A stretch of DNA of 47,756 bases from an uncultured Phascolarctobacterium sp. GTDB taxonomy: Bacteria > Bacillota > Negativicutes > Acidaminococcales > Acidaminococcaceae. The position numbers and the translations under genes are program-made. Below the pieces are notes generated by a model. That model was not told where the DNA came from, did not search any database, and worked only from the letters and a program-made list of their open reading frames with translations. The stretch spans positions 1-47,756 of the forward strand of contig CANREP010000015.1 of assembly GCA_947629685.1 (NCBI GenBank), written 5' to 3'. Numbering within the stretch: position 1 is the stretch's first letter; the number at the start of each line of letters is the position of its first letter. This document shows, in pieces, positions 38,765 to 41,264 of the stretch.

Positions 38765-39049
38765 TTAGCAATTTAAGTACCTTATTATATATTGCAATTC
38801 CGCAGGCAAAAGATGTTCCTGTTCTTCAGTTACAGCAAACAGCCTGCGCCGCGCCGCTGATAATTGATTGTAGGCACTCTCCCGCTGTACTGATAAAACT
38901 GCAGCAATTTGGTTGATGTCCTTTTCGTCAACATACCACCATTTTAATATTTGTTCGTCCCTTCGCTTTAACCCAGTACCGGCAATAAGCGCCGCCAGCG
39001 ACACTTTATTCAGGCTGTCCAATTTCTTGCGGAACGCCTGATAATCCAT
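38765..39049 (-). CDS. Sigma-70 region 4-like small HTH protein
   Basis: A 94-residue protein. The stretch LKRRDEQILKWWYVDEKDINQI-AAVLSVQRESAYNQLSAARRRL follows the sigma region 4 pattern (helix, turn, recognition helix, RARRRL-type end). No region 2 is present. Stand-alone region 4 proteins occur in phages as late-gene regulators, which fits its place beside the lysis genes; a host origin is also possible. The ATG at 39049 lies only nine bases after a TATAAT, so the mRNA may be leaderless. No Shine-Dalgarno sequence is visible. Confidence 0.65.
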   Translation of the reverse strand: MDYQAFRKKLDSLNKVSLAALIAGTGLKRRDEQILKWWYVDEKDINQIAAVLSVQRESAYNQLSAARRRLFAVTEEQEHLLPAELQYIIRYLNC

Positions 39050-39058
39050 AACACAGTC

Positions 39059-39088
39059 ATTATAACACAAAAGCCCTGCTGTTATCAA
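39059..39088 (-). promoter_or_regulatory. Promoter of the sigma-like gene, inside a terminator hairpin
   Basis: On the minus strand TTGATA (5 of 6) is separated by 18 bases from a perfect TATAAT. The -35 box forms the loop of the terminator that follows the preceding gene. Confidence 0.6.
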
Positions 39089-39106: not shown

Positions 39107-39625
39107 TTATGCTAAAACAGACACCCATAATCCGAACTGGCTTTCATCCCAATTATAAGAAGCACGCGCACCGATATAACGGCTGCTCTCGCCGATGCGG
39201 AAGTATCTGCCGTAAGCAACGCCTGCAATACCGTTAAAATCATCTATTAGTACCGCGTATTCGCTCAGCGCTTTCTTCGCCTGCGTCTTTTCCAACGCTT
39301 TTGAGGATTTCTCTGCATTCTGCAATAAGGCTTCCTGATTCTGCGAGGTAACTTTCAAGGCGGCCAGCTGCGCTTGTAGCTGTTCCGATTGCTTCCTGGC
39401 TTCGGTCAATGCTTGTTGTGACGCTGCCAGCTGTGCCTTCAGCGTCTGCAATTCCGCCAGTGATAGCCTGTTGATTTCGTCCAGCCTGTTCAATCTGCTT
39501 TCCAACGCTGTCAGCTGTTCCGGCGTTATCTCCGCCGCGCCACAAGGCAACGGAAATAAGCACAGCGGCAATAACAGCAGCAATAATAAAATAACGTTTT
39601 TTACTGCTTTTTTGTTCAGGCACAA
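39107..39625 (-). CDS. Secreted coiled-coil protein, outer-spanin-like (frame A of a dual-frame pair)
   Basis: A 172-residue product that starts at TTG, eight bases after GGAG. Residues 8-31 form a signal peptide (leucine-rich core, then LPCGAAE, with Cys28 as a weak lipobox candidate). A coiled coil follows (about 38-115, LESRLNRLDEINRL and onward). The tail of about 50 residues is aromatic-rich and amphipathic (YGRYF, YIGARASYNW, FGLWVSVLA), like beta strands for the outer membrane. Most of the gene is overlapped by a second frame (frame B) that codes for a different membrane protein. Position after amidase and holin candidates suggests a lysis role. No family was recognised; the spanin idea is inference. 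Confidence 0.65.
   Translation of the reverse strand: MCLNKKAVKNVILLLLLLLPLCLFPLPCGAAEITPEQLTALESRLNRLDEINRLSLAELQTLKAQLAASQQALTEARKQSEQLQAQLAALKVTSQNQEALLQNAEKSSKALEKTQAKKALSEYAVLIDDFNGIAGVAYGRYFRIGESSRYIGARASYNWDESQFGLWVSVLA
39240..39623 (-). CDS. Membrane-anchored helical protein, inner-spanin-like (frame B, nested in frame A)
   Basis: A 127-residue product starting at GTG, which shares its G with the TTG of frame A. The N-terminus is PEQKSSKKRYFIIAAVIAAVLISVAL: a positively charged leader and one membrane helix (about 9-26), giving N-in, C-out topology. The rest (about 35-127) is predicted helical, rich in Ala, Ser and Glu, and ends RIRGTNR. This is the shape of a phage Rz-type inner spanin. 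It lies entirely inside frame A and has no separate ribosome site. An in-frame TTG at 39647 could give an eight-residue longer form. Confidence 0.65.
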   Translation of the reverse strand: MPEQKSSKKRYFIIAAVIAAVLISVALWRGGDNAGTADSVGKQIEQAGRNQQAITGGIADAEGTAGSVTTSIDRSQEAIGTATSAAGRLESYLAESGSLIAECREILKSVGKDAGEESAERIRGTNR

Positions 39626-39633
39626 CGTCAGCA

Positions 39634-39641
39634 CTCCTTTC
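39634..39641 (-). promoter_or_regulatory. Single Shine-Dalgarno sequence serving two overlapping start codons
   Basis: GAAAGGAG on the minus strand lies 8 bases before TTG (frame A) and 10 bases before GTG (frame B). The two start codons overlap as TTGTG. Confidence 0.65.
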
Positions 39642-39713: not shown

Positions 39714-39797
39714 TTAGTTAAATACGCCGCCAGCAATGCAGCCGACAATTACGCACAGCACAATACCGGCAATAATGGCCATTTTAGTTTTGTTCAT
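39714..39797 (-). CDS. 27-residue membrane peptide in the phage lysis region
   Basis: The tiny product reads MNKTKMAIIAGIVLCVIVGC followed by IAGGVFN. It has a charged start, one hydrophobic helix and two cysteines. A very strong GGGGGTG ribosome site lies five bases before the ATG, which is the main reason to believe it. It lies between the amidase and the dual-frame gene pair. It may be a small holin-like or regulatory membrane peptide. No homologue is known to me. Confidence 0.6.
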   Translation of the reverse strand: MNKTKMAIIAGIVLCVIVGCIAGGVFN

Positions 39798-39816: not shown

Positions 39817-40152
39817 GCTCGAATTTTTCGAATGGTTAAACTGGTCGATTTCGACCGGTTTAAACCTTTCGCGATAAAATACACGAGATTTCTCGTATAT
39901 CAAACGTTTTTTAGAACTAAAACAAGCTAATTTTACTTGCAAAAGTAATTGGTTTTTAGTCCTAAAATTCTGCAAAGCCGCATAAACACTGAATATTTTA
40001 ACTTGACGGTAATTTGCAAATTGGTTCAGTTTAGTCTTATGTTGGCACCAAAACCGAACCAATCTTGTACCAATTCTTATACCAACTCGTACCAGTTTTA
40101 CTCGTTAGTTACTCGTTACCTACTCGTTACCTGCTCTACTGTACTCTACTTG
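39817..40152. repeat. Gene-free phage region with many palindromes and 11-bp tandem repeats
   Basis: About 350 bases without a credible gene. Inverted repeats, in order: TCGAA-TTT-TTCGA (39819-39831), GGTCGA-TT-TCGACC (39843-39856), ACGAGA-TT-TCTCGT (39883-39896), TTTTAG-AA-CTAAAA (39909-39922), TTACTT-GCAA-AAGTAA (39933-39948), TTTTAG-TC-CTAAAA (39954-39967), AATTTGCAAATT (40011-40022), and the long-spaced pair ATTGGTTC (40020-40027) / GAACCAAT (40056-40063). ACCAA/ACCAG units then repeat about every 11 bases to 40094. Three 11-mers sharing TACTCGTTA stand in tandem at 40098-40130, with two weaker copies to 40152. It could be an attachment, origin or regulatory region. Confidence 0.75.
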
Positions 40153-40712
40153 CTGAGATAATCTGTAACACCTCTTGCAATAGCTCTGGCCATTTCATCC
40201 TTATTGGCAAGTAAAAATTCAAGGTCGGTATCGTTGTCAATGAAAATCATCTCGTACAGCACAGCAGGCATATTGGTTGCGTTAAGAACTACGTAGCCTG
40301 CTTCTCGGTCAACATCTCCGTCCAGCCATTCGGAACGCACATACAGTTTTGCACCGAAAGTATTTTCCACCCGGGACATAATGCAGGTGGCCAGTTCGTC
40401 AGCCGCTGTCTGCCCTCTGCTTGTAAAAATTTCCGTACCTTCTGCCATGCCATTAAAAGCATTACAATGAAGGCTTACAAAAACATCCGCAGGCCAGTTG
40501 TTTGCTGCTTCGCAGACGCACTCTCCAACGCCGTCATAATTAAGGTTATCTGATTGCAACAGCTTCACCTCGCAGCCAGCCGCTTCCAAATACTTTTTAA
40601 CCATGGTGCCAATTTCAAGTGCAATATCTGCTTCGGTAATGCCACTGCGTTTATTGATTGCCCCAGGGTCGATACCGGGACAATGCCCAGGATTCAAAAA
40701 GACTCTTGCCAT
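40146..40712 (-). CDS. Phage endolysin, N-acetylmuramoyl-L-alanine amidase (Amidase_3)
   Basis: A 188-residue zinc amidase that cuts between MurNAc and the stem peptide. It starts MARVFLNPGHCPGIDPGAINKRSG, with the first zinc His in the PGH motif. VFVSLHCNAF holds the second His, and MPAVLYEMIFIDN holds the catalytic Glu. No signal peptide or binding domain is present, so it needs a holin to reach the wall. It lies 14 bases after the holin candidate, in a lysis cassette. Confidence 0.93.
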   Translation of the reverse strand: MARVFLNPGHCPGIDPGAINKRSGITEADIALEIGTMVKKYLEAAGCEVKLLQSDNLNYDGVGECVCEAANNWPADVFVSLHCNAFNGMAEGTEIFTSRGQTAADELATCIMSRVENTFGAKLYVRSEWLDGDVDREAGYVVLNATNMPAVLYEMIFIDNDTDLEFLLANKDEMARAIARGVTDYLSK

Positions 40713-40726
40713 TTTAACAGCCCCCT

Positions 40727-40975
40727 TTATTTGTTACTTCCTTTAAATACGGTTGTTACTTTGTTGGCGATATTTACGCCGGCCACGGCCGCAACCAAAG
40801 TTTGGAACACCAACACAATGTTATCGCTAATATCGCCGTCAACCTGGTACTTGACCAATACAAAAATAAAACAGATTACAAGGCAAAGTATCAGCGCGCT
40901 TACTTTTGCTTCGTCAATACTCAACCCGTCTTTAAGATTAAAATTTGAGATGGTTTCTTTTACTTCGTCTGCCAT
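40727..40975 (-). CDS. Phage holin candidate
   Basis: An 82-residue protein with two hydrophobic segments (about 26-43, VSALILCLVICFIFVLVKY, and 53-73, NIVLVFQTLVAAVAGVNIAN), an acidic N-terminus and a Lys-containing C-terminus. This class II holin topology and the position just before the amidase support the call. The ATG at 40975 is preferred over one three codons upstream, which lies too close to the GGGG ribosome site. Confidence 0.72.
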   Translation of the reverse strand: MADEVKETISNFNLKDGLSIDEAKVSALILCLVICFIFVLVKYQVDGDISDNIVLVFQTLVAAVAGVNIANKVTTVFKGSNK

Positions 40976-40991
40976 TATTTGCATATCCCCT

Positions 40992-41264
40992 TTACTGTAA
41001 AACCAACTGCGCTACCGCAACAACAGTACCTATTACTGTTAAAATGGTGGCAGTCATCCAGACAAGCAAACCTTTAAGCGTCAGTGCCTGATGCTGCGTT
41101 TTTTCCAAAGCGTCCAGCCTTTCACTATGCTTGTCAAGTCTGCGGTCTTGCCTTTCCTGCGTTTTCAAAATACCATTTGATAACATGGATTCAATAACGC
41201 TTACTTGTGCCACCAATTTTTGGATATTTTTTCCCATGTTTTCTAAACGGTCGTTTTCTTCCAC
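40992..41264 (-). CDS. XhlA-like membrane protein (hemolysin/holin accessory)
   Basis: A 90-residue product starting at GTG. It has an N-terminal coiled coil (about 5-60, RQDRRLDKHSERLDALEKTQ) and one C-terminal membrane helix (about 66-87). This is the layout of XhlA, which works with a holin in PBSX-like lysis. It is the first gene of the lysis cassette and is divergent from the integrase. Confidence 0.7.
   Translation of the reverse strand: MEENDRLENMGKNIQKLVAQVSVIESMLSNGILKTQERQDRRLDKHSERLDALEKTQHQALTLKGLLVWMTATILTVIGTVVAVAQLVLQ

Follow-up and report, generated by a model that had tools for sequence, protein, structure and literature searches.

The closest described systems are the spanins of phages. 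In lambda Rz/Rz1 the genes of the two subunits overlap in different frames and follow the endolysin gene, the i-subunit has an N-terminal inner-membrane anchor with periplasmic helices, and the o-subunit gene is in frame +1 relative to the i-gene. Rz1-type genes usually begin at 0.4-0.5 of the length of the i-gene and do not extend beyond it (PMC6139136). In the overlapped spanins of the P2 and Jersey types, the second gene begins inside the first and extends past its end, and T1 gp11 is a unimolecular spanin with an N-terminal lipid anchor and a C-terminal transmembrane domain (TMD). The known o- and u-spanins are lipoproteins, and the spanin survey requires a lipoprotein partner, naming type I inner-membrane proteins and OMP-like o-spanins as untested alternatives (PMC6139136). 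Our literature search found no spanin described for Negativicutes.

The locus analyzed here lies in a window of 47,756 nucleotides, which is the whole stretch of DNA from an uncultured Phascolarctobacterium sp. that was studied. It contains two ORFs in frames offset by one base, the GTG ORF (nested) lying entirely within the TTG ORF (container), with the following features:

39107..39625, minus strand: container ORF, 172 aa, TTG start, stop included; relatives in all 93 loci read
39240..39623, minus strand: nested ORF, 127 aa, GTG start; class-wide relatives, putative family phrog_18860
39634..39640, minus strand: Shine-Dalgarno sequence AAAGGAG common to both ORFs, 8 nt to TTG and 10 nt to GTG
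39621..39625, minus strand: overlapping starts TTGTG (container TTG 39625-39623, nested GTG 39623-39621), one base in common
39110..39235, minus strand: C-terminal beta-like module of the container, residues 131-172, a single-coded tail just 3' of the nested stop codon

An earlier note on this DNA had described a single Shine-Dalgarno sequence upstream of TTGTG, a TTG frame of 172 residues with a signal peptide, coiled coil and aromatic tail, and a GTG frame of 127 residues with a positively charged leader, a single membrane helix and an extended helical part. All of these elements were recovered, with AAAGGAG-8 nt-TTGTG located on the minus strand. Its central claim, that a lysis cassette encodes two proteins in two frames behind one ribosome site, is strongly supported by the open frames, selection, the relatives and the neighbouring genes.

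When each frame was searched singly, 15-16 of the family's 59 genomes gave relatives, and the sites found with the two frames mostly coincided. A profile of the nested protein recovered relatives from 108 of the 380 Negativicutes genomes. Named carriers include Pectinatus cerevisiiphilus and Anaerovibrio, from which the class was recognized as Negativicutes, diderm Firmicutes, by way of identical sequences (L053 and L131) that link them to the window's class; outside the class, nothing scored above 47 bits among ~385 genomes of the phylum, and a phylum-wide search with a broad profile caught mostly unrelated long coiled-coil ORFs. A same-strand +1 ORF matching the container profile was present in every one of the 93 loci read, the distant ones among which had been picked by the nested profile alone and not by the container. 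Both frames also occur on IMG/VR contigs and in the human-gut phage record MT836582. Scans of genome and viral contigs with the single window proteins gave no matches, and contig scans succeeded with a compact sub-alignment instead. Protein searches of phage databases returned either no match or one at E 0.7, which profiles later verified as a true pair.

The nested protein matches phrog_18860 in 39 of 87 loci (E ≤ 0.01; best 2e-56), the window's own copy weakly (E 0.03), and would on these matches belong to this family, which is annotated without a function. The overlapping container is absent from any protein family found. Searches of Pfam and NCBIfam gave generic coiled-coil matches only, and no protein family model produced a strong spanin match; the many weak matches of nested proteins to Rz-like spanin PHROGs reflect in part generic coiled-coil character.

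AlphaFold2 single-chain models of the nested protein predict a TM helix (residues 8-29) and a second helix (37-125), which would form a periplasmic helix of ~89 residues. The TM segment and basic leader are kept across the nested family, together with a conserved IAECxxIL...VR region, and the predicted N-terminal TMD and periplasmic helical domain are those of an i-subunit. For the container, a helix spanning residues 35-141 is predicted (a coiled coil of ~107 residues), followed by a tail of low model confidence. Its signal peptide has SPase I-type cleavage sites and no lipobox. Strict lipobox matches were found in two of 86 containers, both inside the hydrophobic core, which rules out the identification of the container as a lipoprotein o-spanin; the N-terminal lipobox that accompanies the C-terminal TMD of a unimolecular spanin is likewise missing from the containers. 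The pair does have features of the non-lipoprotein alternatives named in the survey, type I inner-membrane proteins and OMPs. Of 87 nested proteins, 47 have a cysteine in their C-terminal part, and the mature container is mostly without one. In about 96% of known two-component spanin systems there is a periplasmic cysteine near the interaction site.

The container tail is coded just 3' of the nested stop codon and is the sole single-coded part of the ORF. In most members it consists of QRN followed by a run of ~14 hydrophobic residues and ends in Lys/Arg, whereas the window container has a beta-like segment with aromatic residues. The aromatic tail noted earlier is present in the window, but as a local beta module where most relatives carry a hydrophobic helix with Lys/Arg. 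In L085 (G135) a beta-like tail ending in F replaces the hydrophobic helix, a second case of this kind. These variants suggest that the container tail is a swappable module. We consider the window container a candidate outer-membrane-side subunit and the nested protein a candidate inner-membrane subunit.

The placement of the pair downstream of a holin candidate and an amidase, also proposed in the earlier note, was borne out, with the amidase, the holin candidate and an XhlA-like ORF all upstream on the same strand:

40146..40712, minus strand: endolysin, N-acetylmuramoyl-L-alanine amidase (Amidase_3, E 3.4e-34)
40727..40984, minus strand: holin candidate, 85 aa, with a counterpart in the sister genome G058
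40992..41264, minus strand: XhlA/hemolysin-like lysis accessory, 90 aa (phrog_937, E 4e-5)
39714..39797, minus strand: 27-aa single-helix peptide with a strong Shine-Dalgarno sequence (MNKTKMAIIAGIVLCVIVGCIAGGVFN), between the amidase and the pair

A prophage is marked by an integrase on the plus strand plus a large tail gene. Among 85 loci, the upstream neighbours of the pair include 22 Amidase_3, 17 Amidase_2 and 13 GH25 proteins, a few other wall hydrolases and seven holins. An endolysin lies upstream in ~57 of the 85 (about two thirds), and the pair occupies the lysis-cassette position of a two-component spanin. The 27-aa peptide carries an IVGC lipobox-like motif and was considered as the missing lipoprotein; it was rejected, as no similar lipobox peptide lies upstream of the pair in the relatives checked. 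Different membrane peptides of 29-80 aa stand in its place in L011, L013, L017 and L030. Directly 3' of the lysis genes there is a small sigma-70 region 4-like ORF (window 38765-39088, minus strand; L151 3663-4019), which is conserved in the sister genome and is a possible late-gene regulator.

The cassette recurs at the corresponding site of the sister genome G058, beside gltX and a DEAD helicase, but there a single chain of 190 residues replaces the pair; this chain has a TM segment at its N-terminus and, at its C-terminus, a beta module related to the tail of the window container. Cassettes of two species of one genus thus differ at the gltX/DEAD-helicase site in having either the pair or the single-chain gene. 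The single-chain type was found in 28 of 380 Negativicutes genomes; 13 of its loci were inspected, and most of them have it directly 3' of a recognizable endolysin. None of these 13 loci holds a pair, and the pair loci hold no full single-chain copy. ORFs of ~200 aa following the endolysin (L151 3998-4570, L152-L163) have an N-terminal TM segment and a C-terminal beta segment ending in W, F or Y, with a weak match to phrog_10797. Like T1 gp11, the G058-type chain would bridge the envelope by one polypeptide and has the same cassette position. Unlike T1 gp11, with its N-terminal lipid anchor and C-terminal TMD, it is anchored in the inner membrane by its N-terminus and carries the beta module at its C-terminal end, and the ~200-aa family is a candidate for a one-protein spanin of a new, inverted-polarity type. 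Since the single-chain protein is itself anchored in the inner membrane, the beta tails of this protein and of the window container probably face the outer membrane.

Taken with the position of the pair after wall hydrolases, the predicted topology of both proteins and the restriction to a diderm class, this replacement makes it likely that the pair is a dual-coded two-component spanin-like system for outer-membrane disruption in Negativicutes phages. The nested product is predicted to reside in the inner membrane (N-in/C-out) with its long helix extending into the periplasm, and the container would be exported by its cleavable signal peptide to make a matching coiled coil. The window beta module and the single-chain protein suggest that the C-terminal module of the container interacts with a membrane, which is most likely the outer membrane. 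By analogy with Rz/Rz1, holin and endolysin would act first, after which the two helices may pair, contact the outer membrane and draw the membranes together for fusion. The spanin reading proposed in the earlier note therefore stands as the best functional explanation, but with no strong spanin family match and a secreted partner that has no lipobox. Because the pair would work like spanins but has no lipobox, we do not file it as a spanin member. The broader proposal, that phages of diderm Firmicutes use their own lipoprotein-free class of outer-membrane disruption proteins, with one subunit in the inner membrane and one engaging the outer membrane, both near-wholly dual-coded, overlapping starts served by one ribosome site, a swappable tail (hydrophobic helix or beta module) in the single-coded end and an inverted-polarity single-chain version in other phages, is in our estimate evenly balanced. 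The genes are candidates for phage passage of the outer membrane in diderm Firmicutes and would allow a direct test of non-lipoprotein spanin anchors.

Both frames might instead encode real lysis-cassette proteins with another role, such as antiholin/holin regulation, release of the tether between outer membrane and peptidoglycan, or superinfection exclusion. In Negativicutes the outer membrane is tethered to peptidoglycan by the OmpM/SLH system. The absence of a lipobox is compatible with such roles, and the C-terminal hydrophobic helix with Lys/Arg found in most containers could be the anchor of a type I inner-membrane protein, which would leave no outer-membrane partner. Lysis operons contain accessory genes, and this position can hold antiholins or superinfection-exclusion genes; the best PHROG of the nested protein is of unassigned function. 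However, the post-endolysin position, the diderm-only distribution and two periplasmic coiled coils fit envelope bridging better, as does replacement by a single chain that is anchored in the inner membrane and has a beta tail, and we regard a non-spanin role as rather unlikely.

The coding evidence comes from both frames. Across 78 non-redundant loci there are zero stops in either frame, compared with expected averages of 7.3 in the nested and 5.9 in the container frame when one protein was fixed, its synonymous codons were redrawn from local usage and the other frame was scored; the openness of the nested frame is partly selected by the search, and that of the container frame is not. For the window, the nested frame remains open with P = 0.002 when the container protein is fixed, and the container frame was open in none of 2000 draws with the nested protein fixed. 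The comparison of synonymous sites in the two frames, which the earlier note had called for, gave purifying selection in both, with a dNN/dNS of 0.33 [0.27-0.41] for the container and a dNN/dSN of 0.56 [0.46-0.68] for the nested protein (13 close pairs, each substitution classified by its consequences in the two frames; neither confidence interval reaches 1). Past the first 30 codons the ratios are 0.30 and 0.51, respectively, so the hydrophobic leader is not the source of the selection signal. The earlier caution, that a hydrophobic stretch often stays hydrophobic by chance in a shifted frame, is countered by this two-frame selection, the first 30 codons included. In a control set from the same loci, 21 of 241 ordinary ORFs (~9%) have a +1 frame open for at least 105 codons, so that one locus proves little and it is conservation that carries the proof. 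The frame offset between the ORFs is constant in 87 of 87 loci. With open frames and purifying selection across homologues, as expected of a genuine overlapping pair, dual coding of the locus is essentially certain; a chance ORF is ruled out by the stop counts, the selection in both frames and the 241-ORF control. From the selection we infer that both frames are translated.

The tighter constraint on the container (0.33 versus 0.56) and the existence of single-chain types at the same cassette position are what might be expected if the container acted alone as a single-chain spanin-like protein, with the nested frame encoding an independent small holin-like membrane protein that overlaps it fortuitously. 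But the partners always occur together in the same register, the container has no second anchor besides its cleavable signal, and the periplasmic helix of the nested protein is conserved over its full length, beyond the needs of a holin, making such an arrangement very improbable.

Translation of one frame alone, the other being a by-product of codon composition (hydrophobic codons remaining hydrophobic when the frame shifts, long open +1 frames in ordinary ORFs of these loci, and three loci with a container stop and an intact nested frame could be cited in its favour), is already contradicted by the absence of stops from 78 loci that should each have 6-7, by purifying selection in both frames outside the hydrophobic part too, and by the clustering of both starts at +4 or -2 nt behind one Shine-Dalgarno sequence, and we give it almost no credence. 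The breakage of one frame with the other intact, which the earlier note had named as evidence against dual coding, was seen in only three of 93 loci (L015, L091 and L120, each with a stop in the container and the nested frame intact); these, and a few other loci without a clear 5' end, look like decaying copies.

Of 87 loci, 41 have the two starts at a spacing of +4 nt (ATGNATG) and 16 at -2 nt (ATGTG, as in the window), and a Shine-Dalgarno sequence precedes the start pair in 79. As this count used a distance penalty, it was repeated with each start picked on its own, and the spacing was again +4 or -2 in 44 of 75 non-redundant loci. Containment of one ORF in the other, as described in the earlier note, holds for the window and for 24 of 87 loci but not as a family-wide rule: the membrane-anchored ORF more often begins 4 nt ahead of the secreted one, and the general rule is therefore nearly coincident starts. 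For the same reason the arrangement is the reverse of lambda in the window, with the secreted protein as container, but not usually so in the family.

As in lambda, the container (the candidate o-subunit) is in the +1 frame of the nested gene. Unlike the lambda genes, it runs from 0.01 to 1.17 of the nested gene length (medians), the starts use one ribosome site, and the secreted partner is not a lipoprotein. The pair resembles the overlapped spanins in that the second gene begins inside the first and extends past its end, but ~99% of the nested gene is overlapped, compared with the partial overlap of the P2 and Jersey types, and there is no lipobox. One ribosome-binding site would serve two starts, overlapping or 4 nt apart, in different frames, and this sharing would keep the subunits near a fixed ratio. 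The loci form a class-wide conserved dual-coding pair with both frames beginning at nearly one base, and provide a natural test of ribosome choice between starts 2-4 nt apart. In seven loci (L003, L013, L017, L077, L109, L121 and L125) the nested frame has no ATG, GTG or TTG near the Shine-Dalgarno sequence, and its start would be ATT (ATTG, with the container TTG one base on).
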